Shown here one piece after another: positions 1 to 57,709 of a stretch of 64,000 bases of DNA. Positions within the stretch are counted from its first letter, which is position 1, and every line of letters begins with the position of its first letter. The stretch comes from Saccharothrix syringae (GTDB taxonomy: Bacteria > Actinomycetota > Actinomycetes > Mycobacteriales > Pseudonocardiaceae). A model generated the notes under the pieces. It did not search any database and was not told where the DNA came from. It saw only the letters and a list, made by a program, of their open reading frames with translations. The stretch spans positions 4,836,001-4,900,000 of the forward strand of contig NZ_CP034550.1 in assembly GCF_009498035.1 (NCBI RefSeq), written 5' to 3'. The position numbers and the translations under genes are program-made.

Positions 1-1
1 A

Positions 2-32224: not shown

Positions 32225-32983
32225 ATGACCGGACGCGCGGCGCTGGTGACGGGTGCGGGCAGGGGTATCGGGCGGGCGGTGGCCGAGCGCCTGGCCGACC
32301 GCGGCGCGGTGGTGGCGGTGCACTACCGGCACGACGACGCCTCGGCCGCGGAGGTGGTGGCGACCATCGCCGCGCGTGGCGGCCGGGCCTTCCCGGTGCG
32401 CGCCGACCTGGCCGGACCGGACGGGGTGGACACCCTGTTCGCCGGGCTGGAGGCCGGGTTGCGCGAGCACGTCGGCGAGGTCGCGCTGGACGTGCTGGTG
32501 AACAACGCGGGCATCGGCTGCCCGGGCGAGGTCGAGCAGCTGACGCCGGAGCGGTTCGACCGGGCCTTCGCCGTCAACGTGCGCGCCCCGGTGTTCATCG
32601 TGCAGCGCGCGTTGCCGCTGATGCGCCGCGGCGGGCGGATCGTGAACATCTCCTCGCTGGCCACCAGGGTCGCCCACCCGCGGATCATCGGCTACGCCAT
32701 GACCAAGGGCGCGCTCGACGTGTTCGGCCGCACCCTCGCCGAGCACCTGGGGCCGCGCGGCATCACGGTCAACACCGTGTCGCCCGGCCTGGTGGACACC
32801 GACTTCCACGGCGACCGGTTCCGCGGCGACCCGCGCGCCGCGGCGGACGCCGTCGCCGACACCGCGCTGGGGCGGATGGGGCAGCCGGGCGACGTGGCCG
32901 ACGTCGTCGACTTCCTCACCTCCGAGCGGGCGCGGTGGATCACCGGTGAACGACTCGAAACCGCGGGCGGCACGCACCTGTGA
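32225..32983 (+). CDS. Short-chain dehydrogenase/reductase (FabG-like)
   Basis: A 252-residue classical SDR. The cofactor motif is ALVTGAGRGIGRAVAERLAD (TGxxxGIG), followed by NNAGIG. The catalytic Ser is in IVNISSLATR and the Y-x-x-x-K in GYAMTKGALDVF. The HYRHDDAS region after beta-2 suggests NADPH preference. It ends with the usual dimer-forming tail WITGERLETAGG. ATG 32225 has GGAGGGG upstream and lies just after promoter A, so it opens the SDR-KAS III-desulfurase operon. The likely role is reducing a keto intermediate. Confidence 0.85.
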   Translation: MTGRAALVTGAGRGIGRAVAERLADRGAVVAVHYRHDDASAAEVVATIAARGGRAFPVRADLAGPDGVDTLFAGLEAGLREHVGEVALDVLVNNAGIGCPGEVEQLTPERFDRAFAVNVRAPVFIVQRALPLMRRGGRIVNISSLATRVAHPRIIGYAMTKGALDVFGRTLAEHLGPRGITVNTVSPGLVDTDFHGDRFRGDPRAAADAVADTALGRMGQPGDVADVVDFLTSERARWITGERLETAGGTHL

Positions 32984-33008
32984 CCGCACCGCCCGAAGAG
33001 AGGACGCC

Positions 33009-34043
33009 ATGCGCCTGAACGACATCTACCTGGACGCGATCGGGGTCCGCCTCGGCCGGTCGGTCGACCTCGCCGACGCCGTGGCCGACGGCCGCTACGA
33101 CGCCAACGAGTACACCGCCAACGGTCTGCTGCGCGCCGTGGTGGCCGACGACGGGGAGTTCGCCCCCGACATGGCCGTCACGGCGGTGGAGCGGGCGATG
33201 GCCCGCAGCCAGGTCGGCCCGGAGGCGGTGCGGATGATCCTGCACGCCAGCATCTACTTCCAGGGCCAGGACATGTGGACCCCGGCGTCCTACATCCAGC
33301 AGCACACCATCGGCGGCGCGGCGCCGTCGGTCGACGTCGACCAGAAGTCCAACGGCGGCATGGCCGCGCTCGGCCTGGGCACCACCTTCCTGTCCGCGTG
33401 CGACGACGACGCCGCAGTGCTGATCACCACGTGCGACAAGTTCTGCCTGCCCGGCTGGGACCGGTTCCGCAGCGAGACCGGCACCGTGCTCGGCGACGGC
33501 GCCACCGCCACCGTGCTGACCCGCCGCCCCGGCTTCGCGCGCGTGCTGTCCGTGGTGATGACCGCCGACCCGACGCTGGAGGAGATGTACCGGGGTGACG
33601 GCCTGCGCACCACGCCGGCACCCGGCGACCGGCCGCTGGACCTGCGCACCCGCAAGCAGCGGTACATGCGCCGGCGGCTGCGCGAGCTGGACGAGATCTC
33701 GCTGCGCATCGCGCGCGGCGTGGGCGACTCCGTGGTCCAGGCGCTCGACGAGGCCAAGGTCGAGCTCGACGACGTCAAGCGCGTGGTGCTGCCCAACGTG
33801 GGCCTGACGGTGCGCTGGTGGGGTCTGCTGAAGGAAATGGGCGTGGGCCCGGAACGCACCACCTGGGACTTCGGCCGCAATATCGGGCACCTCGGTGCGG
33901 GCGACCAGTTCAACGGTCTGCACCACCTGGTCGTCGACCGGGCGCTGGAACCGGGTGACCGGGTGGTGCTCGCGGGCAGCGGTCACGGTTTCAACTGGGC
34001 GAGCGCCGTGCTCGAAATCCTGGAGGCGCCCGATTGGCGGTGA
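33009..34043 (+). CDS. KAS III-like acyltransferase with altered Ser/Asn/His triad
   Basis: A 344-residue thiolase-fold protein aligned to FabH-type enzymes over its length. The nucleophile position in VDQKSNGGMAALGLG is Ser114 instead of Cys. The usual catalytic His (PHQAN) is Asn263 in VLPNVGLTVRW, and the usual Asn (GNTS) is His294 in RNIGHLGAGDQ. It is therefore unlikely to do a normal decarboxylative Claisen condensation. Relatives with changed triads (CerJ, DpsC type) act as acyltransferases in natural-product pathways. It lies 25 bp after the SDR with a good AGAGGA ribosome binding site. Transfer of an acyl group from the cluster carrier protein is inferred. Confidence 0.8.
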   Translation: MRLNDIYLDAIGVRLGRSVDLADAVADGRYDANEYTANGLLRAVVADDGEFAPDMAVTAVERAMARSQVGPEAVRMILHASIYFQGQDMWTPASYIQQHTIGGAAPSVDVDQKSNGGMAALGLGTTFLSACDDDAAVLITTCDKFCLPGWDRFRSETGTVLGDGATATVLTRRPGFARVLSVVMTADPTLEEMYRGDGLRTTPAPGDRPLDLRTRKQRYMRRRLRELDEISLRIARGVGDSVVQALDEAKVELDDVKRVVLPNVGLTVRWWGLLKEMGVGPERTTWDFGRNIGHLGAGDQFNGLHHLVVDRALEPGDRVVLAGSGHGFNWASAVLEILEAPDWR

Positions 34044-34147
34044 ACGCGGCAATCCGGTTCGGGCAGGAATCCGAGGAAAACGCGACCGTGAATTCCCGAC
34101 GGGCGCCGGACGGCGGTTCCGGGACGCATACCGCGGCGCGTGGAGCA

Positions 34148-35506
34148 ATGGGGAGTTCCGTGGTGAAAACGGACCAACAGCACACCGGCGCGCGGGCGGG
34201 CGCCCCCGTCGACCTCGTCGGCGCCGATCTCGAGGTGCCGCTCGTCCAGGGCGGGACGACCCGCTACGCCAACCTCGACCACGCGGCGAGCACGCCGGCG
34301 CTGCGCGAGGTGGTGCACCGCCTGGCCGAGGTGGCGCCGTACTACTCCAGCGTCCACCGCGGCGCCGGGTACGCCTCGCAGGTGTCGACCGCGCTGTACG
34401 AGGCGGCGCGCTCCGGCGTCGCGGCCTTCGTGCGGGCGCGCCCGGCGGACGCGGTGGTGTTCACCCGCAACACCACCGACTCGTTGAACCTGCTGGCCGG
34501 GTGCGTGCCGGAGGGCGGTGAGGTGGTGGTCCTCGACGTGGAGCACCACGCGAACCTGCTGCCCTGGCGCGGTCTCCCGCACCGGATCCTGCCCGCCGAG
34601 CCGACGCTGGCGGCCACCCTGGCGGCGGCGGAGCGGTCCCTGGCGCGCGGTCCCGCGGCGCTGCTGGCGGTCACCGGGGCGTCCAACGTCACGGGCGAGG
34701 TGCCGCCGCTGGCCGAGCTGACCCGGATCGCGCACCGGCACGGTGCCCGGATCGCGGTGGACGCCGCGCAGCTGGTACCGCACCGCCGCGTCGACCTCGC
34801 CGGGTCCGACGTGGACTACCTGGCCTTCTCCGGCCACAAGATGTACGCGCCGTACGGCGCGGGCGTGCTGGTCGGGCGCCGCGACTGGCTCGACGCCGGG
34901 CCGCCGCACCTGGCCGGCGGCGGCGCGGTGCGCGAGGTGGCGGTGGACGGGGTGGCCTGGGCCGCGGCGCCGGAGCGGCACGAGGCGGGCACCCCGAACG
35001 TCCTCGGCGCGGTCGCGCTGGCCAGGGCGTGCGAGGTCCTGGCGCACGTGCTGCCGGAGGCCGGGCCGCACGAGGCGGCGCTGCGGGGACGCCTGGTCGC
35101 GGGGCTGGCGCGCCTGCCGGGCGTGCGGCTGCACCGGATCTGGTCGGACTGCGCCGACGCCATCGGCGTGGTGACGTTCTCGGTGGCCGGCTACGACGCC
35201 GGCCACGTCGCGGCCTACCTGTCGGCCGAGCACGGCATCGGCGTGCGCGACGGCCGGTTCTGCGCGCACCCCGCGGCCGCGAGGCTGGGGCTGCCGCGCG
35301 ACGGCGCGGTGCGCGCCGGGTTCGGGGCGGGCACCTGCCCGGACGACGTGGACCGGCTCCTGTCGGCCGTGGAACGGCTGCTGGTCGAGGGTCCGCAGTG
35401 GACCTACGGCGTCGTGGCGGGCCGGTGGGCCCCGGTGCCGGACCCGCGCCCGCTGCCCACGTGGCTGCCGGTCGGCACCGCCCTGCGACCCCGGCCGTGC
35501 GCCTGA
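34148..35506 (+). CDS. SufS-like cysteine desulfurase (class V aminotransferase fold)
   Basis: About 452 residues. After a 30-residue variable N-terminus comes ANLDHAASTPALREVV and SVHRGAGYASQ, as in SufS/CsdA. The PLP lysine is in LAFSGHKMYAPYG. A cysteine in VRDGRFCAHPAAARLG (about C372) aligns with the persulfide-forming Cys of SufS, so real desulfurase activity is plausible. The gene overlaps or follows KAS III closely. I chose ATG 34148; a TTG at 34034 or the GTG at 34163 are alternatives. With a rhodanese protein in the same regulon it suggests dedicated sulfur supply. Confidence 0.8.
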   Translation: MGSSVVKTDQQHTGARAGAPVDLVGADLEVPLVQGGTTRYANLDHAASTPALREVVHRLAEVAPYYSSVHRGAGYASQVSTALYEAARSGVAAFVRARPADAVVFTRNTTDSLNLLAGCVPEGGEVVVLDVEHHANLLPWRGLPHRILPAEPTLAATLAAAERSLARGPAALLAVTGASNVTGEVPPLAELTRIAHRHGARIAVDAAQLVPHRRVDLAGSDVDYLAFSGHKMYAPYGAGVLVGRRDWLDAGPPHLAGGGAVREVAVDGVAWAAAPERHEAGTPNVLGAVALARACEVLAHVLPEAGPHEAALRGRLVAGLARLPGVRLHRIWSDCADAIGVVTFSVAGYDAGHVAAYLSAEHGIGVRDGRFCAHPAAARLGLPRDGAVRAGFGAGTCPDDVDRLLSAVERLLVEGPQWTYGVVAGRWAPVPDPRPLPTWLPVGTALRPRPCA

Positions 35507-35525
35507 CCGGGTGCGCCGCCGACGA

Positions 35526-35558
35526 GGTGTGCCGCGCCAGGGCCCGGCGCGGCACACC
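35526..35558. terminator. Bidirectional hairpin terminator
   Basis: A perfect 13-bp stem (GGTGTGCCGCGCC, 7-base loop, complement) sits between the converging desulfurase (ends 35506) and LuxR (ends 35565) genes. Confidence 0.8.
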
Positions 35559-35564
35559 CGAGTG

Positions 35565-36467
35565 CTAGCCGGCGCGGGTCAGCTCCTCGTCGGACAGCCG
35601 CTGCGCAGGCACCTCCAGCAGGTCGCTGGCGCGGGCGGCGACCATCCCGGCCTCGAAGCGGCTGGACACGCCCAGCCTGCGCAGCAGCGAGGACACCATC
35701 CGCCGCAGCGTGCGCGGTGACACCTGGAGGTCGCGGGCGATGGCGGAGTCCTTCCGGCCGCGCGCCCACAGCTGGAGGATCAGCACCTGCTGCTCGGTCA
35801 GCCGCAGCGGCTGACCGGTCCGGGCGCACGTCCTCGGCGCGGCCGGCTCCCGCAGGTCCGTCGTGCGGTCCCAGCAGAACTCGAACACCTGGCGCAGCAC
35901 GGCGACGGCCGGGCGGGACCGCACCAGGACCAGCCGCTCCGGCGGGTCGGCGGACTCGGCGGGCGCCACCAGGGCCATGGTCTCGTCGACGACCAGCATC
36001 CGGAACGGCAGCAGCGGGGCGCTCCGCAGCCGCACGCCCATGTCGGTCAGCTCCTTCAGGTGCGTCGCGGTGCGCGTGCTGTCTGCCGCCGAGCTCTGGT
36101 GGATGGCCCGCACGGTGACGTCCTTGCCGCGCGCCATGGCGTTGCGCGCCACGCTGGCGCTGAAAGCGTGCGGCACCGTGGGCAGCGGCCGCATCCACAG
36201 CATGTCACCCGTCGCCAGGACCGGCGCGCTGTCCAGCAGCTCCCTGATCCGGTACGGGTTGGTCACCTCCTGGACCCCGCCCGCGTCCGGCGCCTCGGCG
36301 TCCACGCCCCGGCCGTAGAGCGCGAGGGCCGAAACCTGGGTCTGGATGGAATGCGCGTGGTCGAACGCGGTCGTCAAGGTGTGCTGCTGCTGTTCCACTA
36401 ACTTGATCAATGCCTCCCACGGGCAGGTATCGCTTTCGGCGAGCGGGAACGCTGCTTGACGGACCAC
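35565..36467 (-). CDS. LuxR-family regulator, probable cluster activator
   Basis: A 300-residue protein. The C-terminal LuxR/NarL helix-turn-helix (residues about 222-285) shows LRLTEQQVLILQLWARGRKD and SAIARDLQVSPRTLRRMVSS. The N-terminal part starts with a helix (WEALIKLVEQQQHTLTTAFD), then a TrmB-like sensor segment (MLWMRPLPTVPHAF, VTVRAIHQSS, MLVVDETMALVAP). It lacks a phosphorylation receiver domain. Many Streptomyces gene clusters use LuxR proteins of this design. GTG 36467 is preceded by GGGGGAG. It is the only regulator inside the cluster, so it is the leading candidate to bind the four shared boxes. Confidence 0.8.
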   Translation of the reverse strand: MVRQAAFPLAESDTCPWEALIKLVEQQQHTLTTAFDHAHSIQTQVSALALYGRGVDAEAPDAGGVQEVTNPYRIRELLDSAPVLATGDMLWMRPLPTVPHAFSASVARNAMARGKDVTVRAIHQSSAADSTRTATHLKELTDMGVRLRSAPLLPFRMLVVDETMALVAPAESADPPERLVLVRSRPAVAVLRQVFEFCWDRTTDLREPAAPRTCARTGQPLRLTEQQVLILQLWARGRKDSAIARDLQVSPRTLRRMVSSLLRRLGVSSRFEAGMVAARASDLLEVPAQRLSDEELTRAG

Positions 36468-36501
36468 TTACGGCTCCCCCAGAAGTCGAGGTGTCCGCCC
36501 G

Positions 36502-36562: not shown

Positions 36563-36678
36563 CGGTCACCGAGGTGTTCTTTTCTCTCCGATTGCGCCTC
36601 GAATGCCCGGTTCGCCCGGTGTCAAGAAGTCGTGTTGGAGGACGGAAATCACAGTTGCTCCGTGGGCATTGTCCTGAT

Positions 36679-36697: not shown

Positions 36698-36718
36698 AGC
36701 GAAGCTAGGGGTAATCGG

Positions 36719-38143
36719 GTGGAACAATTGACACATGCCGTTTGCCGCGGAACGCCCGCGGCGGCTCCGGGGGTGCTCGCGCCGGCGCGGGCGGCGGACG
36801 CGGCGCGGCTGTGGGACCGGATGGCGCTCGCCGCGCGGCAGCCGGGCCGGGCGGTCCGCGACACCGTCCCGCCCGAGCTGGGACCGGTGCTGGAGCTGTT
36901 CGACGCGGCGGGCCGGGGCTCGCTGACCGGTGGCCCGTCGGTGCCGTCCGCGGGCGCGCTGTACCCGTACGAGTTCTACGCGGTCGTGCCGGGTCCGCAC
37001 GGCTGGGCGGTCCACGCCGTGGACGCCGCGCGGCGTCGCTGCCGGCTGGTCCGGCGGGGACCGGACGTGGCGGACGCGCTGCGCGACGCGGGGCTGGACC
37101 ACCTCGCCGGGCCGGTGGTGGTGGTCGCGCTGCGGCCGTGGCTGTCCATGCGCAAGTACGGCGACCGGGGCTACCTCTACGCCCAACTGGACGCCGCCCA
37201 CGTCGCGACCCACCTGCTGTGCCTGGCCGCCGAGCGGCACCGGCACGCCGAGCTGCGGACCGGCGCGGCGGCCACCGCGCTGGAGGAGGTGATCGGCCTG
37301 GCGGACGGGTGCCGGTTCGCGCACAGCGCGCTGGTGCTGCGCGGCGGCACGCCGTCCCCGGTGCCCGGTTGGTCCTCAGTGGACGGCCTCGGCGGGGTGG
37401 CGTGGCCCGAGGCACCGTCGTGGCTGGAGCGCGAGTGCTGGAAGTCGGTGGAGGAGCACCGCCCGGTGCGCCCCGCCGCGCCGGGCACCCCGGTGCGCCC
37501 GCACGCCCTGCTGGCCGGCGCCGCGGAGCCGGCCGCGGGCTTCCCCGGCGGCCAGTCGCCGACCTCGCTGGCCGCGCGCCGCAGGTCGACCAAGGACTTC
37601 CGGCCCGAGGCGCTGGACGGCGCGACCCTCGACCGGGTGCTGGCGGTGTTGCGGACACCGCTGGCGGTCGACCTGCCGCCCGTCGCCGGGCTGAGCGCCA
37701 CGCTCGTCGCGCGCAACGTGCGGGGTCGCGCACCCGGCTGCTACCCGGTGCGCGGCACCGGCCCGGTGTGCGGGCCGGAGAGCGCGCCGGTGGCCGCCGC
37801 CCCGCCCGAGGACGAGCTGTTGCGGGCCTGCATGGACCAGGAGCACCTGCGGCACGCCGCCGCGCTGGTGCTGTTCCACACCGCTCGGCAGGACCTGCTG
37901 TGCCACGGCATCGACGACACCCTGCTGCGCGCGGGCGCGCTCGCCCACCTGCTCTACCTCGGCGCCGCGGGCGAGGGGGTCGCCATCACCGCGATCGGCG
38001 GGTTCGACGGTCCCCGCTGGCGCGCGCTGGCCGGGCTGCCCGGCCGGGACGAGGTGCTCTACGTCGTGCTGCTCGGCGGGTCCGGCGGCGCGGCCCTCAA
38101 GCTCGACCGGCTCCAGCCGGCCTACGCGCACACCGGGAGGTAG
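36719..38143 (+). CDS. Two-domain SagB/nitroreductase-like FMN oxidoreductase
   Basis: A 474-residue protein with two tandem nitroreductase folds. Domain 1 (about 40-215) has GPSVPSAGALYPYEFYAV and the dimer helix YLYAQLDAAHVATHLLCLAA. Domain 2 (about 275-470) has the FMN-binding AARRRSTKDFRPEAL, LLYLGAAGEGVAITAIGGFD and VLYVVLLGGSGGAALKLD. This layout resembles SagB-type dehydrogenases, which oxidise azolines to azoles in ribosomal peptides and some other products. No cyclodehydratase or NRPS is present here. It may aromatise a heterocycle made from 3-hydroxyanthranilate or an amino acid. GTG 36719 is the start. Confidence 0.75.
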   Translation: MEQLTHAVCRGTPAAAPGVLAPARAADAARLWDRMALAARQPGRAVRDTVPPELGPVLELFDAAGRGSLTGGPSVPSAGALYPYEFYAVVPGPHGWAVHAVDAARRRCRLVRRGPDVADALRDAGLDHLAGPVVVVALRPWLSMRKYGDRGYLYAQLDAAHVATHLLCLAAERHRHAELRTGAAATALEEVIGLADGCRFAHSALVLRGGTPSPVPGWSSVDGLGGVAWPEAPSWLERECWKSVEEHRPVRPAAPGTPVRPHALLAGAAEPAAGFPGGQSPTSLAARRRSTKDFRPEALDGATLDRVLAVLRTPLAVDLPPVAGLSATLVARNVRGRAPGCYPVRGTGPVCGPESAPVAAAPPEDELLRACMDQEHLRHAAALVLFHTARQDLLCHGIDDTLLRAGALAHLLYLGAAGEGVAITAIGGFDGPRWRALAGLPGRDEVLYVVLLGGSGGAALKLDRLQPAYAHTGR

Positions 38144-38147: not shown

Positions 38148-39581
38148 GTGCTCGCCACGCTGATCCCCGAAACCCTGCGACGACACGGCGACCGCCTCGC
38201 CGTGTCCGACGACGACACCGCGCTCACCTACCGCGAGCTGGACGCCGAGGCCGGTGCGGCGGCCCGGCACCTGGCCGCCGCGCTGCCCGCGGGCGACCGC
38301 CTCCGGGTCGCGGTGCAGGCCGCCAACTCCACCGCCTACGTCGTGCTGTACCTGGCCCTGCTGCGGCTGGGCCACGTGCCGTTCCTGCTCGACCGGGCGA
38401 ACTCGCCGCGCGAGACCGCCGCGATCGCCGCGGACTGCGGCCTGGACGCCCTGCTCCACGACGCGGGCGTGGCGGCACCGGAGGGCGCGGCGCCGTCGGG
38501 CGCGGTGGGCGGCCTGGCCCTGTCGGCCTTCACCCCGCCGGCCGAGCGGCCGCCGCTGCACGACACCACCGAGGTGTGCCGCTTCACCTCCGGCTCCACC
38601 GGCCGGCCGCACTGCATCGAGTTCTCCGGTGCCGCGGTCCACCGCGCCGCCGTCAACTGGGTGGCCGGGACCGGCCTGACCGGAGAGGACCGGATCGCCT
38701 GCTTCGCCTCGCTGTCCAACGGCCTGGCCTTCAACACCTCCCTGCTGCCCGCGTTCCTGGCCGGGGCGCGACTGCACCTGGCCCACGGCCTGCCCACGGC
38801 GGGCCGCGTGGTGCGGCTGCTCGACCGGACCGGGGCGACCCGCCTGGTCGGGTTCCCGGTGCTCTACGAGTCGCTGGTGCGCCGCTCCGCCTCGGACGGG
38901 GCGATCGGGCGGCTGCGCATGGCGATCTCGTCCGCCGCGCCGCTGCCCGAGGAGGTCGGGCGGCGGTTCACCGGGCTGACCGGCGTGCCGGTGCAGAACT
39001 ACTACGGCGCCGCCGAGGCCGGCCCGCTGACCTTCGCCCGCGACCCGCGGCGCGACCCCGGGCTCGGGCAGCCGCTGCCGGGGGTGTCGCTGCGCGCGGG
39101 CACCCCGGGCGACCCCGCGCCCGTCGAGGTCCGCAGCGAGTCGATGGGCACCCGCTACCTCAACGCGCCGGGCCTGCTGGAGGGCCGGGTGACCGCGGAC
39201 GGCCACTACCGCACCGGCGACCTCGGCCACCTCGACGGCGGCAGCCTGGTGCTGACCGGCCGCACCAGCCAGGTGATCAACGTCGGTGGCCGCAAGGTCG
39301 ACGCCGTCGAGGTCGCCGCGGTGCTGCGGGCCGCCGACGGCGTGCGCGACGCCGTGGTGCTGGAGGTGACCGACCGGCACGGCGCCGCGGCGCTGGGCGC
39401 CGTCGTGGCCGGCGCGGGCGTCGACCCGGCGCTGGTGCGGCGGCACGCCGCCGACCTGCTCGCCGCGCACAAGGTGCCCGCGCTGCTGCGCACCGTCGCC
39501 GAGATCCCGCGCGGCACCACCGGCAAACCGGCCATGGCCGAGCTGCGCCGCCTGTTCACGCCCGCCCGGCACGACGGGTGA
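38148..39581 (+). CDS. Acyl-adenylate ligase (AMP-binding)
   Basis: A 477-residue ANL-superfamily enzyme. The P-loop motif is CRFTSGSTGRPHCIEF, with His where Lys is common. A5 is QNYYGAAEAGPLTFA and A7 YRTGDLGHLDGG. A8 is GRTSQVINVGGRKVDAVEV and A10 the catalytic Lys in PRGTTGKPAMAEL. No fused carrier domain is present; the separate carrier gene follows 23 bp later, so loading of that protein is likely. The substrate is not readable from sequence; an aromatic acid such as 3-hydroxyanthranilate or a small amino acid are candidates. GTG start with GGGAGG upstream. Confidence 0.85.
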   Translation: MLATLIPETLRRHGDRLAVSDDDTALTYRELDAEAGAAARHLAAALPAGDRLRVAVQAANSTAYVVLYLALLRLGHVPFLLDRANSPRETAAIAADCGLDALLHDAGVAAPEGAAPSGAVGGLALSAFTPPAERPPLHDTTEVCRFTSGSTGRPHCIEFSGAAVHRAAVNWVAGTGLTGEDRIACFASLSNGLAFNTSLLPAFLAGARLHLAHGLPTAGRVVRLLDRTGATRLVGFPVLYESLVRRSASDGAIGRLRMAISSAAPLPEEVGRRFTGLTGVPVQNYYGAAEAGPLTFARDPRRDPGLGQPLPGVSLRAGTPGDPAPVEVRSESMGTRYLNAPGLLEGRVTADGHYRTGDLGHLDGGSLVLTGRTSQVINVGGRKVDAVEVAAVLRAADGVRDAVVLEVTDRHGAAALGAVVAGAGVDPALVRRHAADLLAAHKVPALLRTVAEIPRGTTGKPAMAELRRLFTPARHDG

Positions 39582-44128: not shown

Positions 44129-44139
44129 CAGGAGTGGCG

Positions 44140-50092: not shown

Positions 50093-51301
50093 ATGGTGTC
50101 GGACCGCATCGCGGGCACGGCGGACGCCCACCGGTCCGGGCCCGTGCCGGACCCGGTGGGCCTGCTCACCGCCGCGGCGACTACCGCCGCGCACCAGCCG
50201 GAGTGGAGCAGCCCGTGGCTCGCCGGGCAGGTCCGCGAGGACCTGTCCCGCCTACCGGGCCTGGTCTCCGCCGAGGACGTGGCCGCCCTGCGGGCGCGGC
50301 TGGCGCTGGTGGCGTCGGGCGGGGCGCTGGTCGTGCAGGCCGGCGACTGCGCGGAGGACCCCGACCGGTGCGAACCGGTGCACGTGCGCGCCAAGGTCGC
50401 GCTGCTCGACGCGCTGGCCGAGGTGGTCACGGCCCGGTCGGGCTTGCCGGTGGTGCGCGTCGGCCGGCTGGCCGGGCAGTTCGCCAAGCCCCGTTCGCGG
50501 CCCACCGAGCGGGTGGCCGGCGTGGAGCTGCCGGTGTACCGCGGCGCGATGGTCAACGACCCCCGGCCGGACCCGGCCGCCCGGGTGCCCGACCCGCTGC
50601 GGATGCTGGACTGCCACGAACTGTCCACATCGGTCGTCGAGGCGTTGGCGGCCGAGCGCCGCGACCCCGGCGCCGAGGTGTGGACCAGCCACGAGGCGCT
50701 GGTGCTGGACTACGAGGTGCCGTTGTTGCGCCCCACCGACGGCGGGCTGCTGCTGGCGTCCGCGCACCTGCCGTGGATCGGGGAGCGCACCCGGCAGGTC
50801 GACGGCGCCCACGTGCGGCTGCTGGCCTCGGTGGTCAACCCGGTCGCCTGCAAGGTGGGGCCGACCACGACCGCGGACGAGCTGCGGCGCCTGTGCGCGG
50901 TGCTCGACCCGCACCGGGAACCGGGCCGCCTGACGCTCATCGCGCGCATGGGCGCCGACCGGGTGCGCGACGTGCTGCCGGGCCTGGTGCGGGCTGTGCG
51001 CGAAGCGGGTCACCCGGTGGTGTGGCTGTGCGATCCCATGCACGGCAACACGGTGACCGGCCCGGACGGGCTCAAGGTGCGCGTGGTCACCACGCTGGTG
51101 CGTGAGCTGGAGGGCTTCCAGGACGCGGTGCGCGCCCAAGGCGGCGTCGACGGCGGCGTGCACCTGGAGGCGACACCGGAAGAGGTGGCGGAGTGCGCGT
51201 GGACGGCCGACGAGCGGCCGACCGGACCCCGCACCACCCTGTGCGACCCGCGGCTGTCGCGCCGGCAGGCCGTGGCGGTGCTGTCGGCGTGGCGAGCCTG
51301 A
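50093..51301 (+). CDS. phzC-like: Class II (PhzC-type) DAHP synthase
   Basis: A 402-residue plant-type 3-deoxy-D-arabino-heptulosonate-7-phosphate synthase. Signatures include VQAGDCAEDPDRCEPVHVRA, RVGRLAGQFAKPRS, YRGAMVNDPRPD, WTSHEALVLDYE and NPVACKVGPTTTADEL, and finally VWLCDPMHGNTV and GGVHLEATPEEVAEC. It condenses PEP and erythrose-4-phosphate at the entry of the shikimate pathway. A cluster copy is commonly a way to raise chorismate supply. It is somewhat shorter than housekeeping enzymes, as PhzC proteins are. The ATG follows GGGGGAGGG; it opens the operon from promoter B. Confidence 0.9.
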   Translation: MVSDRIAGTADAHRSGPVPDPVGLLTAAATTAAHQPEWSSPWLAGQVREDLSRLPGLVSAEDVAALRARLALVASGGALVVQAGDCAEDPDRCEPVHVRAKVALLDALAEVVTARSGLPVVRVGRLAGQFAKPRSRPTERVAGVELPVYRGAMVNDPRPDPAARVPDPLRMLDCHELSTSVVEALAAERRDPGAEVWTSHEALVLDYEVPLLRPTDGGLLLASAHLPWIGERTRQVDGAHVRLLASVVNPVACKVGPTTTADELRRLCAVLDPHREPGRLTLIARMGADRVRDVLPGLVRAVREAGHPVVWLCDPMHGNTVTGPDGLKVRVVTTLVRELEGFQDAVRAQGGVDGGVHLEATPEEVAECAWTADERPTGPRTTLCDPRLSRRQAVAVLSAWRA

Positions 51302-51311: not shown

Positions 51312-52091
51312 ATGAGGACCGAGGAGTTCGCGGGCAGGGTCGCGATCGTCACCGGAGCGGCGGGCGGGATCGGGCAGGCGGTGGTGCTGGCCCTGGTCGA
51401 CCTGGGCGCTGCGGTGGCCGCCGTCGACCTGGACGGCGAGGCGCTACGAGCCCTGGAGCGCAAGGCGAACGTGGGGCGGCAGGCCGTGCGCGGCTTCACC
51501 GCCGACGTGCGCGAGCCCGCCGACGCCGTCGTGGCCGAGGTCGAGCGGCGACTGGGCCCGGTCGACTTCCTGGTCAACGGCGCGGGCGTGCTGCGCCCCG
51601 GCCCGGCGCTGGAGATGGGCCCCGACGACTGGGACGCCGTGCTGTCGGTGAACGCGGGCGGGGTGTTCCACTTCTCCACCGCCGCGGCCCGCCGGATGGT
51701 CGAGCGCGGTCGGGGTGCCGTCGTGACGGTCTCCTCGAACGCGGCGGGCGTGCCGCGCACCCGGATGTCCGCCTACTGCGCGTCGAAGGCCGCGGCGACG
51801 GCGTTCACCAAGGCCCTGGGGCTGGAACTGGCGGTGCACGGCATCCGGTGCAACGTCGTGGCGCCCGGCTCCACCGACACCGCGATGCTGCGCTCGCTGT
51901 GGACCGACGACAGCGGCCCGGCCAACTCGCTCGCGGGGTCGCTGCCCGAGTACCGGGTCGGCATCCCGCTGCGCAAGTTCGCCACGCCCGAGGACATCGC
52001 GGACGCGGTCGTGTTCCTGCTGTCCGACCGCGCCGCCCACATCACCTTGCAGGACCTGTACGTCGACGGCGGCGCCGCGCTCGGTCGCTAG
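51312..52091 (+). CDS. EntA-like 2,3-dihydro-2,3-dihydroxybenzoate/DHHA dehydrogenase
   Basis: A 259-residue SDR. The cofactor motif is [20 protein letters not shown], the NGAG motif is [11 protein letters not shown], Ser is in [13 protein letters not shown] and Y-x-x-x-K in [26 protein letters not shown] suggests NAD preference. It ends [14 protein letters not shown], as in EntA/DhbA-type dehydrogenases. Next to PhzD- and PhzE-like genes it should oxidise DHHA to 3-hydroxyanthranilate, as in benzoxazole and pyrrolobenzodiazepine-type pathways. ATG after GAAGGAGGAGGC, 10 bp behind DAHP synthase. Confidence 0.8.
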
Positions 52092-52120: not shown

Positions 52121-52792
52121 TTGGGGATCCCCACCATCCAGCCGTACCCGATGCCGGGTGCGGGCGACCTGCCGCGCAACACCGCCGACTGGACCCCGGA
52201 CGGCGGCCGGGCGGCGCTGCTGGTGCACGACATGCAGAAGTACTTCGTCCGCCCCTTCCCCCGGCACCTCGAACCGGGGGGCGCGCTCGTCGACAACACC
52301 CGGGCGCTGGTGCGGCGGGCCCGGGCGTGCGGCGTCCCGGTGCTCTACACGGCCCAGCCCGGCCGGATGACGCCGGAGCAGCGCGGGCTGCTCAAGGACT
52401 TCTGGGGTCCGGGCATGACCACGACGGCCGACGACCGCGAGGTGATCGACGAGCTGGCCCCGGACGGGGACAGCGCGCTGTTCACCAAGTGGCGCTACAG
52501 CGCCTTCCACGGCAACGGCCTGCTGGAGCACCTGCGCGCGACCGGCCGCGACCAGCTCGTCGTCTGCGGTGTCTACGCGCACGTGGGCTGCCTGATGACC
52601 GCCGTGGAGGCGTTCACCCACGACATCGAGACCTTCCTGGTCGCCGACGCGGTGGCGGACTTCTCCGCCGAGCACCACCGGATGGCGCTGGAGTACGCGG
52701 CGAGCCGCTGCTCGGTCGTGCTCACCACGCACGCCGTGCTGGCCCACCTCGACCGCACCGGCCTGGTCGCGCGCGCGGCGGGCGAGTCGTGA
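52121..52792 (+). CDS. phzD-like: PhzD-like isochorismatase (ADIC hydrolase), TTG start
   Basis: A 223-residue protein starting [19 protein letters not shown], very like PhzD N-termini. This fixes a rare TTG start (52121) behind GAGGGAAAGGG. Catalytic Asp is in [11 protein letters not shown] (D37) and Lys in [11 protein letters not shown] (K123). The position of the usual nucleophilic Cys is Gly156 in [13 protein letters not shown], as expected for PhzD-type isochorismatases rather than cysteine hydrolases. It should cleave ADIC to DHHA plus pyruvate. The stop overlaps the PhzE-like GTG. Confidence 0.9.
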
Positions 52793-54822
52793 CCCGCGCC
52801 GAACCCGGCTTCGCCGACCTGCTGGCCCGGGTGCTCGGCCCGGCGGCGCCCGACTTCGCGCTGGTGCACCGCCCGGAGGCGGTGGGCGACCGCGTCGAGC
52901 TGCTGCTCGGCGATGTGGCGAGCGTGCCGCTGCTGGCCGACCTGCCGCTGCCCGAGCCGGGCCCGGCCGGTTCCCCGCGCCACGACCTGTTCGCGCTCGT
53001 GCCCTACCGGCAGGTGGTGGAGCGGGGCTTCGAGTGCCACGACGACGGCGCGCCGCTGCTGGCGATGTCGGTGCGCGAGCAGGTGTCGACCACCCTGTCG
53101 ACCGCCCTGGGGCTGCTGCCCGACGAGCCGATCACCCTGCGCGACCCGCACTTCGACGTCGACGACGACGAGTACGCCTCGATCGTGCGGTCGGTGCTGA
53201 CCGAGGAGATCGGCCGGGGCGTGGGCGCCAACTTCGTCATCAAGCGCTCGTTCACCGCCGAGGTGCCCGACTTCTCCCGGCGCAAGGCGCTGTCGCTGTT
53301 CCGCAGGCTGCTCAGCGGCGAGCGCGGCGCGTACTGGACGTTCGCCGCGCACCTGGCCGGGCGGACGTTCGTCGGCGCGACGCCGGAGCGGCACCTCAGC
53401 CTGTTCGACGGCACCGCGGTGATGAACCCGATCAGCGGCACCCACCGGCACCCGCCGGGCGGCCCGTCGTTGGCCGGGCTGCTGGACTTCCTCGCCGACC
53501 CGAAGGAGACCGCCGAGCTGTACATGGTCCTCGACGAGGAGCTGAAGATGATGGGGCGCGTCGCCGAGGGCGGCGGCCGCGCGGTGGGGCCGTTCCTCAA
53601 GGAGATGGCGACCCTGAGCCACACCGAGTACCTGATCGAGGGGCACGTGCCCGGCGACCCGCGGGACGTGCTCAGGGAGACGCTGTTCGCGCCGACGGTC
53701 ACCGGCAGCCCGGTGGAGAGCGCCTGCCGCGTCATCCGGCAGCACGAGCCCCGCGGCCGCGGCTACTACAGCGGGGTGGCGGCCCTGGTCAGCCGCGACG
53801 TGAACGGCGGCCGGTCGCTGGACTCGGCGATCCTGCTGCGCACGGCGGAGGTCGTCGACGGGCGGCTGGCCATCGCGGTCGGGGCGACCCTGGTGCGCGA
53901 CTCCGACGCCCGGTCGGAGGTGGCCGAGACGCACGGCAAGGTCGGGACGATGCTGCGGGCGCTCGGCGTCCGGGCCGGGTCCCCGGCGCACCCGGCCGGC
54001 GCGCCCGACCCTGCCGCCCCTGCCGCCGCTCCCGCGCCCGCTCCGGCCGCCGCTCCCGTCTCGGCCGCCGCTCCCGTCTCGACCACCGCCCTCACCCCGG
54101 TCGCCGCGTCCACCCCGATCGACCTGGCCGCCCACCCCGAGGTCCAGGCCGCCCTGGCGGACCGCAACTCGCGGCTCGCGCCGTTCTGGCTGGACCGGTC
54201 GGGGCGGCGGGTCCACGTCGTGCCGCACCTGGTCGGCCGCCGGGTGCTCGTGGTCGACGCGGAGGACACGTTCACCGCGATGCTGCGGCACCAGCTGTGC
54301 GCGCTCGGCCTGGACGCGGAGGTGCGCCGGTTCGACGAGCCGCACCCGGTGGGGGAGCACGACCTGGTCGTCATGGGACCCGGCCCGGGTGACCCGCGCG
54401 ACCGCGCCCACCCCCGGATCGCCCGGGTGCGCGAGTCCCTGGCGGAGCTGCTGCGGGCGCGGCGGCCGTTCCTGGCCGTCTGCCTGAGCCACCAGGTGCT
54501 CGGCACCCTGCTGGGCCTCGGGGTCGTCCGCCGGGAGCGGCCGGACCAGGGCGTGCAGCGGGAGGTCGACTTCTTCGGGCGGCGCGTGCGCGTGGGCTTC
54601 TACAACACCTTCGCGCTGCGCTGCGACCGCGACGAGGTCGACGGCGTGGAGGTGTGCCGCGACCCCGTCGACGGGCAGGTGCACGGCCTGCGCGGACCGC
54701 ACTTCCGCTCGTTCCAGTTCCACGCGGAGTCCGTGCTGAGCGCGGACGGGCTGGCCGTGCTGCGCGACGCGGTGACCTCGTTGCTGCCGGCGCCCGTGGC
54801 CTCGGCCCACCGGGACCGGTGA
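52789..54822 (+). CDS. phzE-like: PhzE-like ADIC synthase (fused TrpE-like and glutaminase domains)
   Basis: A 677-residue fusion. The chorismate-binding domain (about 1-395) has [45 protein letters not shown] and [21 protein letters not shown] Pro/Ala linker (about 400-440) leads to a class I glutamine amidotransferase (about 480-665), with nucleophile Cys in [17 protein letters not shown] and His-x-Glu in [10 protein letters not shown]. This order is that of PhzE, which makes 2-amino-2-desoxyisochorismate from chorismate and glutamine. GTG 52789 overlaps phzD-like. Confidence 0.9.
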
Positions 54823-54829
54823 GGCGGCG

Positions 54830-56020
54830 GTGGCCAGGTTCGTCGTCGTCGGTGGCGGCATCGGCGGTCTCGCCGCGGCGTTGAGCGTCGCGCGGGCGGG
54901 CCACGAGGTGGAGGTCCTCGAACGCGCTCGTGAGTTCGCGGAGCTGGGCGCGGGCATCCAGCTGGCGCCCAACGCCTTCCACGCGCTGGACGTGCTCGGG
55001 GTCGGCGCGGAGGTCCGGGCCGCCGCCGTGCACGTCGAGGAACTGCGGCTGGTGGACGGGCGCTCCGGTGGCGTGCTGGCCCGGATGCCGGTGGGCGAGG
55101 GGTACCGCGGGCGGTTCGGCAACCCCTACGCCGTCGTCCACCGGCCGGACCTGCACACCCCGCTGCTGCGCGCCTGCCGGTCCGAGCCCGCGATCCGGCT
55201 CCGCGCCGGCTGCGCGGTGGTGCGGTACGAGGACTCCGGCCGGGGGGTGACCTGCGAGCTGGCCTCCGGCGAGCGGGTGACGGGCGACGCGCTGGTCGGT
55301 GCCGACGGCATCCGCTCCACCGTCCGCGGGCAGCTGCTCGGCGACGGCGAGCCGCGGGTGACCGGCCACACCATCTTCCGCAGCGTCGTGCCGATGGACT
55401 CCGTGCCGCCCGGCCTGCGGTGGAACGCGGTGTGCCTGTGGGCCTTGCCGGGCGCGCACCTGGTGCACTACCCGATCGCGGGCGGCCGGAAGCTCAACCT
55501 CGCGATCACCCGCGACGACGGCGCGCGCACGGCCGTGTCCGGCCTGCCCGCGGACCGCGCGGACGTGCTCGCGGCGTTCACCGACCTGCCCGCCACCGCG
55601 CGGGAGCTGCTGGAGCTGGGCCGCGACTGGCACCGGTGGGTGCTGTGCGACCGCGACCCGGTGCCGCGCTGGCACGAGGGCCGCGTGGTGCTGATCGGCG
55701 ACGCCGCCCACCCGATGCTCCAGTACGCCGCCCAGGGCGCCTGCATGGCGCTGGAGGACGCGGTGGTGCTCGGCGCGCTGGTGCGCTGCGGCCCCGACGC
55801 GGTGCCCGACCGCTTCGGCCGCTTCACCGCGCTGCGGCGGGACCGCACCGCACGCGCCCAGGAGGTCGCCCGCTGGCTCGGCGAGGCGGTCTACCACGCG
55901 GCGGGCGACCGGGCGCGGTCGCGGGACGCCCTGCTCGCCGGGCTGTCCGCGGAGGACCTGTACGAGGCGGTGTCGTGGCTCCACGCCGCGAAGGTCGACG
56001 CACCCGCCGCCGCCCGCTGA
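54830..56020 (+). CDS. Salicylate hydroxylase-like FAD monooxygenase
   Basis: A 396-residue class A flavoprotein. The FAD motif is RFVVVGGGIGGLAAALSVAR, followed by ELGAGIQLAPNAFHALD. The DG motif is LVGADGIRSTVRGQLL and the GD motif RVVLIGDAAHPMLQYAAQGA. These features group it with salicylate and 3-hydroxybenzoate hydroxylases. Acting on 3-hydroxyanthranilate it could add a hydroxyl, possibly with loss of the carboxyl as NahG does. GTG 54830 lies 7 bp after the PhzE-like stop. Confidence 0.85.
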   Translation: MARFVVVGGGIGGLAAALSVARAGHEVEVLERAREFAELGAGIQLAPNAFHALDVLGVGAEVRAAAVHVEELRLVDGRSGGVLARMPVGEGYRGRFGNPYAVVHRPDLHTPLLRACRSEPAIRLRAGCAVVRYEDSGRGVTCELASGERVTGDALVGADGIRSTVRGQLLGDGEPRVTGHTIFRSVVPMDSVPPGLRWNAVCLWALPGAHLVHYPIAGGRKLNLAITRDDGARTAVSGLPADRADVLAAFTDLPATARELLELGRDWHRWVLCDRDPVPRWHEGRVVLIGDAAHPMLQYAAQGACMALEDAVVLGALVRCGPDAVPDRFGRFTALRRDRTARAQEVARWLGEAVYHAAGDRARSRDALLAGLSAEDLYEAVSWLHAAKVDAPAAAR

Positions 56021-56037
56021 CGAAGAACAGGAGTGCC

Positions 56038-57174
56038 ATGCCGTACCCAGCCCTGGCCGCGCAGGTGGACGACCTCGACGACGAGTACGTCCGCCGCACG
56101 GCCCACCAGCTGATCCTGGCCGACGTCGGCGCGATCGGCCAGCGCCGGTTGCGGGGCGCGCGCGTGCTGGTGATCGGCGCCGACGAGGTCGGTGCCGCCG
56201 CCCTCGTCCAGCTCGCCGACGCCGGTGTCGGCACGCTCGGCGTCGTGGACGGCGCCCGGCTGCACCCGTGGGACCGGCACGCCGGCCTGCCCGCGGACCA
56301 CGGCACCCGGGCCGCCTCGTGGGCGAAGTCGCTGATCCCGACCCACCCCTGGCTGACCGTGCACGCCTGGGAGAGCCGCTTCGACCCGGCGCTCGCCGCC
56401 CGGGTCGCGGACTACGACCTGGTGCTCTGCGCGGTCGAGGACCCCGCGCTGTGCTACCTGGTCGACGACGCCTGCGCGCGGGAGGGCAAGCCGTGGGTGT
56501 GGGGCGGCATGGACCGCGCCGAGGGCCGGGTGAGCGTGTTCTGGGACGCGCACGGCCCGACCTACCGCGACCTGTTCCCCACCCCGCCCGCGCCGTACTT
56601 CCGCGGCATGGCGGGCACGCTGACCGCGCTGGGCCCGTGGATCGCCGCCGTCATGGCGGCCGAGGCGGTGAAGCTGCTCGCCGGTTCGGGGGAGCCCCTG
56701 CTGGGGCGCGTGCTGGAGTACGACGCGATGCGCGGCGACTGCGGGACCCGGTCGCTGGTGCGCGGCGCGTCGACCGCGCGGCCGGCCGAGCTGACCGCGC
56801 ACGAGCCGTTCTTCGGCCTGCTCTCCCCGCAGGCGGCCGAGGCGGCCCGGGAGGCCACCATCTCCGCGGTCGAGCTGAAGGAGCTGATGGACGGCGGCGT
56901 GCCGCTGCACGTGGTGGACGTGCGGGAGGCCGACGAGCACGCCTTCGTGGACCTGCCCGGCTCGGTCCTGGTGCCCAAGGCGGAGTTCCTGGAGGGCGAC
57001 GCGGCGGCGCGCCTGCCCCGGGACCGCAAGGTGGTGCTGTTCTGCCGGATGGGCATCCGCTCCGCCGAGGCGCTGGCCGTGGTGCGCGCGCAGGGCCACC
57101 CCGACGCGGTGCACCTGGGCGGCGGCATCCTGGCGTGGGCGCAGCAGGTCGACCCCGACCTGCCGACGTACTGA
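56038..57174 (+). CDS. MoeZ-like protein: degenerate E1/ThiF domain fused to intact rhodanese
   Basis: A 378-residue protein. The N-terminal E1-like domain (about 25-245) is recognisable from VRRTAHQLILADVGAIGQRR, AAEAVKLLAGSGEPLLGRVL and EYDAM. Its nucleotide loop reads VIGADEVGAAAL instead of GxGGLGS, and the Cys-containing CAEGGVLG stretch is absent (TPPAPYFRGMAG). The rhodanese domain (about 275-375) keeps the active Cys in LFCRMGIRSAEALAV (about C336). It may pass persulfide sulfur, while adenylation by the E1 part is doubtful. It sits in the 3-hydroxyanthranilate operon 17 bp after the hydroxylase. Confidence 0.8.
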   Translation: MPYPALAAQVDDLDDEYVRRTAHQLILADVGAIGQRRLRGARVLVIGADEVGAAALVQLADAGVGTLGVVDGARLHPWDRHAGLPADHGTRAASWAKSLIPTHPWLTVHAWESRFDPALAARVADYDLVLCAVEDPALCYLVDDACAREGKPWVWGGMDRAEGRVSVFWDAHGPTYRDLFPTPPAPYFRGMAGTLTALGPWIAAVMAAEAVKLLAGSGEPLLGRVLEYDAMRGDCGTRSLVRGASTARPAELTAHEPFFGLLSPQAAEAAREATISAVELKELMDGGVPLHVVDVREADEHAFVDLPGSVLVPKAEFLEGDAAARLPRDRKVVLFCRMGIRSAEALAVVRAQGHPDAVHLGGGILAWAQQVDPDLPTY

Positions 57175-57184
57175 GGGGGCCGCG

Positions 57185-57709
57185 ATGACCCCGAGGGAGA
57201 CGGCCCCGGAGGACACCACCGCCGAGGAGCTGCTGCTCGCCCGGCTGGCCGAGCAGGAGGAGCGGCTGGTGTTCGGCCGCTTCGACAACGACACCGCCTA
57301 CGCGCTCGGCGACCGGATGGTGTGCGAGGCCCGCCGCCGCGGCCTGGCGATCACGGTCTCGGTGCGCCGCGGCGGCCAACTGCTGTTCCACGCCGCGCTG
57401 CCCGGGACGTCGTTGGACAACGAGGAGTGGGCGGAGCGCAAGAGCCGGGTGGTGGACCGCTACGGCCACAGCTCGTACCTGGTGGGCACGCGGTTCCGGG
57501 TCCGCGGCTCGACGTTCGACGCGCGCTCGCGGCTGGACCCCGCGCGGTACGCGGCCAGCGGCGGTTCGTTCCCGGTCGTCGTGCGCGACGTCGGCCCGGT
57601 CGGCAGCGTGACCGTGTCCGGCCTGCGCGAGGAGGAGGACCACGCGTTCGTGGTCGAGCAGCTGGCGGCCTTCCTCGGCGTCGACCCGGGGTGGCCCCGG
57701 CAGGCGTGA
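57185..57709 (+). CDS. HbpS/UPF0303-like heme-degrading domain protein
   Basis: A 174-residue protein. FGRFDNDTAYALGDRMVCEA is followed by RGLAITVSVRRGGQLLFHAA, EEWAERKSRVVDRYGHSSYL, SGGSFPVVVRDVGPVGSVTV and GLREEEDHAFVVEQL. The pattern matches UPF0303/HbpS-like proteins, a profilin-like fold in which some members bind or degrade heme and others accompany redox operons. It starts 10 bp after the MoeZ-like stop and is the last gene before an 18-bp-stem terminator. Its role in the pathway is unknown. Confidence 0.75.
   Translation: MTPRETAPEDTTAEELLLARLAEQEERLVFGRFDNDTAYALGDRMVCEARRRGLAITVSVRRGGQLLFHAALPGTSLDNEEWAERKSRVVDRYGHSSYLVGTRFRVRGSTFDARSRLDPARYAASGGSFPVVVRDVGPVGSVTVSGLREEEDHAFVVEQLAAFLGVDPGWPRQA

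Follow-up and report, generated by a model that had tools for sequence, protein, structure and literature searches.

The window analysed here is a stretch of 64,000 nucleotides (positions 4,836,001-4,900,000) of the 10.93-Mb single-contig genome of Saccharothrix syringae, and this report deals with a biosynthetic gene cluster that it contains. Genes were called from codon-position composition, and families were assigned with Pfam and NCBIfam scans. Between 32225 and 57709, 24 genes were called (Table 1). These ends, which had already been given in an earlier reading made without database searches (the sequence-only reading), are exact: the gene of a short-chain dehydrogenase/reductase (SDR) starts with the ATG at 32225, preceded by GGAGGGG, and an HbpS gene ends at 57709. 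In four plus-strand blocks (32225-35506, 36773-42459, 42776-46898 and 50093-57709), most genes are closely spaced or overlap by 4-16 bases, and the minus strand carries the LuxR gene and one FAD monooxygenase gene. A scan of the region 35300-37000 returned neither a promoter nor a terminator.

Paulomycins are sugar-bearing aminoquinones with a reactive isothiocyanate ester, and paulomycose is an unusual eight-carbon sugar. When compared with the paulomycin clusters of Streptomyces paulus NRRL 8115 (pau; KJ721164) and S. albus J1074 (plm), 20 genes of the window are counterparts of pau17-21 (5 genes), pau24-37 (14) and pau39 (1), while the exporter of the major facilitator superfamily (MFS) is the counterpart of pau9. 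For the three genes left over, which code for HbpS, the PF04199 cyclase and a 97-aa protein, pau offers no counterpart. The blocks 28-29, 31-37 with 39, 24-26 and 17-21 have been kept together; in contrast to pau and plm, the E1-rhodanese gene has been relocated to the end of the 3-hydroxyanthranilate (3-HAA) operon, and the three genes without counterpart are additional. The set for ring A is complete, with 3-deoxy-D-arabinoheptulosonate 7-phosphate (DAHP) synthase, 2-amino-2-deoxyisochorismate (ADIC) synthase, isochorismatase, 2,3-dihydro-3-hydroxyanthranilate (DHHA) dehydrogenase and two FAD monooxygenases, one similar to 3-hydroxybenzoate 6-hydroxylase (3HB6H) and one to TcmG/RdmE. The paulate set is complete as well (KAS III-like enzyme, E1-rhodanese, desulfurase, SagB, ligase, acyl carrier protein (ACP), DapB, aldolase and acyl-CoA dehydrogenase), and both the Pau25-like C-glycosyltransferase and the Pau24-like 13-O-acetyltransferase are present (64% and 58% identity to Streptomyces sp. 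ISL-100). Paulomycins are abolished by knock-out of pau18, the PhzE homologue (PMC4425429), and of plm28 (E1-rhodanese) or plm29 (desulfurase) (PMC4802897).

Table 1. Genes of the cluster. Entries of Table 1 of PMC4425429 are given in brackets after the pau gene. "Cassette" marks the gene set discussed in the text; PLP, pyridoxal phosphate.
Product	Position	Strand	Counterpart	Basis
SDR reductase, 252 aa	32225..32983	+	pau28 (reductase)	61-67% identity to SDR of eight pau-type clusters; 39% in oral Actinomyces
KAS III-like acyltransferase (Ser114, His294, Asp299), probable paulate transferase	33009..34043	+	pau29 (KAS III)	Pfam/NCBIfam, PDB matches
SufS-like cysteine desulfurase	34160..35506	+	pau31 (cysteine desulfurase)	Pfam/NCBIfam; PLP Lys and loop Cys
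LuxR-type regulator	35565..36398	-	pau32 (regulator)	42-53% to regulators of eight pau-type clusters
SagB-like nitroreductase-fold oxidoreductase, cassette	36773..38143	+	pau33 (oxidoreductase)	Pfam/NCBIfam, homologue comparison
AMP-forming ligase, cassette	38148..39581	+	pau34 (acyl-CoA synthase)	Pfam/NCBIfam, homologue comparison
Acyl carrier protein, cassette	39605..39877	+	pau35 (ACP)	weak: no Pfam match; NCBIfam 19.4 bits, cutoff 66
DapB-like reductase, cassette	39870..40592	+	pau36 (dihydrodipicolinate reductase)	Pfam/NCBIfam
Class II aldolase-fold enzyme, cassette	40589..41335	+	pau37 (AraD-like)	Pfam; conserved residues
Acyl-CoA/aminoacyl-carrier dehydrogenase, cassette	41320..42459	+	pau39 (acyl-CoA dehydrogenase)	RedW prolyl-carrier dehydrogenase model, E 3.4e-65, under its cutoff
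MFS exporter, putative Pau9-like role	42776..44128	+	pau9	42% to MFS adjoining EF-G gene in Streptomyces sp. ISL-100
Acyl_transf_3 O-acyltransferase, by analogy for 13-O-acetylation	44134..45306	+	pau24 (acyltransferase)/plm22	58% to ISL-100
C-glycosyltransferase (EryCIII-like)	45331..46455	+	pau25 (C-glycosyltransferase)	64-81% in five pau-type clusters; 37% in oral Actinomyces
VOC/glyoxalase-fold protein	46452..46898	+	pau26 (glyoxalase)	62-76% in ISL-100, G057 and Lentzea
97-aa predicted protein	46997..47290	+		gene calling
PF04199 putative cyclase	47352..48272	+		Pfam
FAD monooxygenase, ring A, TcmG/RdmE-like	48286..49914	-	pau27 (FAD monooxygenase)	61-69% in five pau-type clusters; 38% in oral Actinomyces
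Class II DAHP synthase (PhzC-like)	50093..51301	+	pau21 (DAHP synthase)	Pfam E 1.8e-118
DHHA dehydrogenase (EntA/DhbA-like)	51312..52091	+	pau20 (DHB dehydrogenase)	TIGR04316, 319 bits, cutoff 300
Isochorismatase-like PhzD homologue	52121..52792	+	pau19 (PhzD)	isochorismatase fold, E 5.1e-43
ADIC synthase (PhzE-like)	52789..54822	+	pau18 (PhzE)	chorismate-binding enzyme and GATase
FAD hydroxylase, 3HB6H-like	54830..56020	+	pau17 (3HB6H)	3-hydroxybenzoate 6-monooxygenase model, 462.9 bits, cutoff 459
E1-rhodanese fusion (MoeZ-like), E1 half degenerate, rhodanese Cys kept	56038..57174	+	pau30 (MoeZ-like)	Pfam/NCBIfam, motif comparison
HbpS-like protein	57185..57709	+		Pfam/NCBIfam

Every enzyme family named in the sequence-only reading is present, and its route from ADIC via DHHA to 3-HAA is borne out by a whole 3-HAA module with pau counterparts, just as its sulfur-transfer and carrier-protein chemistry is by the desulfurase, the E1-rhodanese and the ACP. 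It had passed over the LuxR-type regulator, the VOC/glyoxalase protein, the PF04199 cyclase, the 97-aa protein and the second FAD monooxygenase. That reading had also taken the cluster as unrecognised, with no matching known cluster, which is refuted by the match in gene content to Table 1 of PMC4425429; the close match to a characterised cluster that it had named as speaking against its proposal is found in gene content, with the same local blocks as in pau.

At the protein level, 21 proteins of the window match the pau-type cluster of Streptomyces sp. ISL-100 with 42-81% identity. From the 3HB6H gene onward, the ISL-100 genes follow the pau17-pau43 order with mostly similar sizes (662, 219, 272, 397, 342, 289, 375, 374, 149 and 549 aa for the counterparts of pau18-27, and 379, 455, 491, 480, 99, 250 and 252 aa for those of pau30, 31 and 33-37); there is one merged call of 814 aa, and pau40 is uncalled. 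Ten of the ISL-100 genes that lack a match in the window were assigned by Pfam. They code for EF-G, a transketolase C/pyrimidine-binding protein, a pyruvate-dehydrogenase-type E1 dehydrogenase, an NDP-hexose 2,3-dehydratase, a 4,6-dehydratase-type protein of the epimerase family, a nucleotidyltransferase, a GMC oxidoreductase, an aldo/keto reductase, a protein without Pfam match and a TetR regulator.

Whole syntenic clusters with 52-90% identity occur in another species of Saccharothrix (G057) and in Lentzea sp. NBRC 105346 (G247), and since the gene order is kept in both, the cluster is not a chance assembly. The pau-type set is also present, in rearranged form, in Micromonospora antibiotica and S. 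albidus CAP215; M. antibiotica retains a relative of the Streptomyces GMC oxidoreductase, which the window lacks. An HbpS counterpart was found only in Lentzea among the compared regions of pau-type clusters (it is missing in G057), and counterparts of the 97-aa protein and of the PF04199 cyclase are absent from the compared regions of nine other pau-type clusters. Clusters of this type are rare in the genome samples searched. The SagB marker (E<=1e-20) was found in 9 of 390 genomes of the family and the whole cluster in three, which are the window's own genome, G057 and Lentzea sp. NBRC 105346. With the KAS III marker at strict cut-offs, a single genome was found both in a sample of the phylum (1 of 396 at E<=1e-110, the window's own) and in a sample of the genus of ISL-100 (1 of 392 at E<=1e-100, that of the query).

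Rather than an unknown pathway, this chromosomal cluster represents a reduced form of a known antibiotic pathway. We are confident that it belongs to the paulomycin family, without the paulomycose genes, and that its product would be paulomycose-free and paulate-bearing. By family membership, the DAHP synthase and the PhzE-, PhzD- and EntA-like enzymes would supply 3-HAA, which the two FAD monooxygenases would convert to the aminoquinone ring A. The Pau25-like enzyme would C-glycosylate this ring and the Pau24-like enzyme would acetylate the sugar at 13-O, as is supported by knock-outs of the Streptomyces homologues, and the MFS protein would export the product. The sequence-only reading was right in expecting a glycosylated, acylated and exported compound, the C-glycosyltransferase, the acyltransferase and the MFS exporter being present. 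What the genes predict is a 3-HAA-derived aminoquinone, C-glycosylated, acetylated and esterified with the isothiocyanate-bearing paulic acid. While the genes that take part in acid tailoring, sulfur transfer and paulate transfer are supported, we infer the substrates and the order of the steps.

The desulfurase retains the PLP lysine (SGHK) and the loop cysteine (FCAHP) in all nine sequences compared, including that of the window, and thus a desulfurase is indicated rather than the aminotransferase suggested for Plm29 (PMC4802897). The rhodanese cysteine is likewise kept in 12 of 12 E1-rhodanese proteins, ten of them from pau-type clusters with the window included and two from the cassette loci L046 and L063 described below. 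Enzymes of the MoeB/ThiF type carry a GxGGxG ATP motif, NLQRQ, TDN and, in the crossover loop, SCAE. None of the 12 proteins has GAGGLG, NLQRQ, TDN or SCAE, while all four occur in the MoeZ of the same genome (at 925,542), which is 44% identical to the E1-rhodanese of the window. The E1 half therefore appears to fall short of a functional MoeB/MoeZ/ThiF E1 enzyme. This loss is not remarked on in the available text of the paulomycin papers cited here. Loss of the zinc cysteines was dropped as a sign of degeneration, as this MoeZ also lacks CxxC at "NYRDLYP".

The loss of the E1 motifs together with the kept rhodanese cysteine argues against sulfur delivery via a ThiS-type carrier. The desulfurase would instead hand cysteine sulfur to the rhodanese cysteine, which would pass it on to a nitrogen-bearing one-carbon group with no adenylated carrier protein in between, giving the isothiocyanate; we regard the chances of this carrier-free form of the step as even. 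For the sulfur step only, the first paulomycin proposal (PMC4425429) was that a ThiS/MoaD-like carrier, encoded elsewhere, is adenylated in E1 fashion as for BE-7585A. There are four PF02597 (ThiS) matches in the genome outside the window, and the MoeZ with its four motifs could charge such a carrier in trans, but the consistent absence of these motifs from the E1-rhodanese proteins, all with the rhodanese cysteine in place, makes this the less likely route and, on balance, a rather doubtful one. The ACP of the window, which has a ThiS-like C-terminal GTGG, was also considered as sulfur carrier; this was rejected, since none of seven homologues ends in GG.

To place the acid-forming genes, 58 loci were collected from named genomes via an aldolase alignment, with flanks of up to 10 kb, so that all co-occurrence figures are conditional on the aldolase; four loci (that of Actinomyces, L076, L061 and L091) were read by tblastn, the Actinomyces locus also by listing its open reading frames (ORFs). 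SagB, ligase, DapB and aldolase genes occur together in 52 of the 58 loci (L069, L071, L084, L086, L088 and L090 are incomplete), and among these 52 an ACP match is found in 34 and an acyl-CoA dehydrogenase match (at least 38%) in 43. Within these flanks, a KAS III, E1-rhodanese or desulfurase gene is present in 10 of the 52, and the remaining 42 have none of them. The SagB-ligase-ACP-DapB-aldolase set is thus a mobile cassette, a point that goes beyond the accessible text of the papers cited. It is shared between the window and clusters of Streptomyces, Kitasatospora, Actinoplanes, Nocardia and others, several of which differ from the window in having a stand-alone condensation domain in place of KAS III. 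Besides this domain, recurrent partners are a polysaccharide deacetylase, an MFS protein, a luciferase-like monooxygenase and MMPL. A tblastn search of plasmids with the aldolase gave no match.

Several loci are of interest in their own right. In 12 loci of Streptomyces, Kitasatospora and Actinoplanes (L041-L045, L049, L051, L052, L054-L056 and L087), genes for a stand-alone condensation domain, for a polysaccharide deacetylase (in 11 of 12, not in L051) and for an MFS protein come after the six-gene cassette. Loci L046 (13124-14263) and L063 (12832-13971) have a pau-type E1-rhodanese with the cassette and a condensation domain, and no KAS III or desulfurase gene in their flanks; they possibly represent a second sulfur-bearing family. 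In a further Saccharothrix genome (G061, L023-L025), some 20-25 kb separate the cassette, which includes the acyl-CoA dehydrogenase, from genes of the PhzE, PhzD and EntA type (51-69% identity), and the 60 kb examined contain no match to KAS III, E1-rhodanese or desulfurase; this is perhaps a sulfur-free combination of both modules.

Within the cassette, the attachment motif of the ACP is SL(S/A) in six of seven homologues and SIA in the seventh, and His103, His105, His167 and Glu84 of the aldolase are invariant in 7 of 7 aldolase sequences. Solved relatives of the aldolase include NovR, TqaM and sugar aldolases. Its proposed role as D-allose epimerase (PMC4425429) is disfavoured by its steady association with the cassette, and as 42 of 52 cassette loci have no KAS III, E1-rhodanese or desulfurase gene in their flanks, the aldolase is probably not such an epimerase. 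A homologue of the C-glycosyltransferase (E<=1e-40) is absent from 17 of 23 cassette genomes searched; in Kutzneria, one of the six with a match, it lies about 610 kb from the cassette. A cassette role of the aldolase has the drawback that no candidate gene remains for the formation of D-allose.

In the proposed route, the ligase would activate a C4 acid and load it onto the ACP, where the SagB-, DapB-, aldolase- and acyl-CoA-dehydrogenase-like enzymes would tailor it. A common logic of the cassette would be loading of the ACP, tailoring, and handover by KAS III or by a condensation domain. More speculatively, and with the odds against it, the cassette may be a widespread module for making a C4 acyl unit, bound to the ACP and substituted with nitrogen, which KAS III would hand over in paulomycins and stand-alone condensation domains in the other clusters; in paulomycins, the pseudo-E1 rhodanese would place persulfide sulfur directly on this unit (e.g. 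on an isonitrile-like or formamide-like carbon), and clusters without sulfur genes would make sulfur-free relatives. We know of no earlier description of the cassette as a biosynthetic module.

The absence of the paulomycose genes (pau6, 7, 11, 12, 14-16, 22, 23 and 42-44) was examined mainly with the ISL-100 and adm13 counterparts of pau genes. For those of pau10-12, 14, 16, 22, 23, 38 and 41-43, the whole 64-kb window gives no match, and the pau15 counterpart matches only the C-glycosyltransferase (28-29%). There is no sequence proxy for pau6, pau7, pau13, pau44 and plm19; judged by Pfam family, the scanned cluster genes include none of the pau6, pau7, pau44 or plm19 type, and neither a second Acyl_transf_3 nor an aldo/keto reductase or a GNAT is among them. 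Counterparts of the phosphopantetheinyl transferase (PPTase; pau38 in Table 1 of PMC4425429) and of the pyranose oxidase were not found for the cluster. As the paulomycose genes are missing, we regard it as a paulomycose-free member of the family, from which paulomycin A or B is not expected.

NDP-hexose 2,3-dehydratase (PF03559) was found in six of ten genomes with pau-type clusters. By contig and by position relative to the PhzE gene, it is inside the cluster in four Streptomyces (adm13, A108, ISL-100 and exfoliatus) and outside in Lentzea (on another contig) and in the window's own genome; no match was found in the genomes of G057, S. albidus CAP215, M. antibiotica and the oral Actinomyces. 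The sole PF03559 locus of the own genome, at 7.70 Mb, might suggest that full paulomycins are made with paulomycose from deoxysugar genes elsewhere, but it is 2.8 Mb distant from the cluster, no second glycosyltransferase was found in the cluster by gene calling and Pfam, and pau-type clusters also exist in G057, M. antibiotica and S. albidus CAP215, whose genomes gave no PF03559 match, so that we consider this highly unlikely. In a tree built from six concatenated proteins of 10 taxa (2,104 columns), the four paulomycose-bearing Streptomyces form one clade (support 100) among paulomycose-free ones, which may reflect one gain of the paulomycose genes or several losses. The Actinomyces branch of this tree is very long and its placement is weak (60).

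This branch stems from a 20.7-kb contig in the assembly of a human oral bacterium, Actinomyces sp. oral taxon 170 F0386 (L102 1-20000, also L062), that carries a compact paulomycin-like operon. It comprises Acyl_transf_3, glycosyltransferase, VOC, FAD monooxygenase, SDR, KAS III, E1-rhodanese, SagB, ligase, ACP, DapB, aldolase, PhzD, PhzE, 3HB6H and MFS genes; no match to the desulfurase or the acyl-CoA dehydrogenase was found at the locus. The contig has about 50% GC and, of 49 Actinomyces genomes, 1 has the KAS III gene, namely that of the contig itself, so both a transfer and a contaminant contig are possible.

Two known compounds indicate what the cluster may produce. The expected core is 6-hydroxyl-paulinone (m/z 473), obtained from S. 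albus mutants lacking the paulomycose transferase (plm12) or three paulomycose genes (delta-SUG) (PMC4802897). Unlike these mutant products, the 13-O-acetyl form is expected, the window having kept the Pau24-like acetyltransferase, and Pau24 has been assigned to 13-O-acetylation (PMC4753412). Paulomycin G of Micromonospora matsumotoense M-412 is a natural paulomycose-free member with a methyl group at C-13, i.e. a 6-deoxy sugar (PMC5618410); it bears paulate and acetate on the C-linked sugar, as predicted for the window, whereas the cluster analysed here has no 4,6-dehydratase gene. No gene cluster for paulomycin G is reported in the available text of PMC5618410. Because the Pau24-like gene is present and a 4,6-dehydratase gene is absent from the cluster, the main ion predicted for a hexose sugar carrying a single O-acetyl group would be that of C20H22N2O12S ([M+H]+ 515.0966, UV about 236/275/320 nm).

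The best PDB matches of the KAS III-like enzyme are DpsC (4xs7), CerJ (3s3l) and ChlB3 (7eqi), of which CerJ is a sugar acyltransferase (PMC4425429). Ser114, His294 and Asp299 are kept in all ten KAS III sequences, the window included, and DpsC has a serine at the position equivalent to Ser114. The sequence-only reading had seen this enzyme as a coupler of 3-HAA units; most likely it is an O-acyltransferase for paulate, in which a serine enzyme would move paulate from the ACP to the sugar. A second KAS III-like gene, 40% identical to that of the cluster, is located at 6758281-6759255 of the genome. In benzoxazole clusters, a ligase and a KAS III join aryl acids, without a C-glycosyltransferase or a paulate set; the gene content of the window does not have this hallmark, benzoxazole clusters being set apart here by their general description. 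A cluster of the A33853/nataxazole type, in which 3-HAA units joined by ligase and KAS III would give a benzoxazole or, with desulfurase sulfur, a benzothiazole, is the least credible explanation. Although the window does have a 3-HAA module along with a ligase and a KAS III-like enzyme, the paulomycin correspondence is gene by gene and extends to the C-glycosyltransferase, the two ring-A hydroxylases and the paulate set, and the ligase belongs to a cassette found in 42 of 52 loci without KAS III, E1-rhodanese or desulfurase genes in the flanks, which makes a 3-HAA ligase unlikely. The predicted product is not a benzoxazole or benzothiazole, and the benzoxazole, benzothiazole or thioester-derived heterocycle proposed earlier is not expected, as the gene content predicts a paulate-bearing isothiocyanate.

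Several points weigh against the assignment to the paulomycin family as we present it. Protein identities were measured on Streptomyces clusters that resemble pau in order and gene sizes and serve as proxies for KJ721164, and the paulomycose part (pau11-16) of the ISL-100 and adm13 proxies is ordered unlike the pau numbering. No plm19-type gene is among the Pfam-scanned cluster genes, but S. albus made no paulomycins once plm19, its proposed paulate transferase gene, had been deleted (PMC4802897). In the pau21-pau22 gap of ISL-100 and adm13, no ORF of at least 100 aa lies wholly inside, and ORFs of 100 and 122 aa overlap it partly (J1074 is not included). The position of the histidine in the LPHMG of DpsC is Asn in seven and His in three of the ten KAS III sequences, so that loss of condensing activity is not clean across the family and a simple rule of a lost histidine does not fit. 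No role is known for HbpS, the PF04199 cyclase or the 97-aa protein. The cluster has neither a thymidylyltransferase gene nor an evident D-allose epimerase, and the pau41 type is missing as well; the sugar may therefore differ and could be allose or another hexose. Finally, membership and product are, for this organism, predictions from the genes.

Upstream of the cluster, about 1.5 kb (30741-32225) are without a called gene; a long minus-strand ORF in this region includes LVDGFDEVVDE and is perhaps the remnant of an NTPase gene. The region 1-13800 of the window has a lower GC content (56-68%) and few good gene calls. It contains two ORFs with DDE transposase-type domains and, on the minus strand, an ORF with a caspase domain (Peptidase_C14; 4615-5748).

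In summary, the window shows the paulomycin pathway in a compact form, carried by a strain of the Pseudonocardiaceae. This suggests that the paulomycose set, the plm19-type gene, an in-cluster PPTase and the pyranose oxidase are dispensable for the core, and where plm19 is absent, the KAS III-like enzyme is the candidate left for paulate transfer. The main find is ordinary, but its side result is useful for paulate biosynthesis: the Pau37 aldolase would be reassigned from sugar epimerisation to the ACP-bound acid, and the degeneration of the E1 half speaks for a rhodanese that transfers the isothiocyanate sulfur directly. If the pseudo-E1 rhodanese does place persulfide sulfur on the ACP-bound unit, this would be a carrier-protein-free bacterial route to isothiocyanates.

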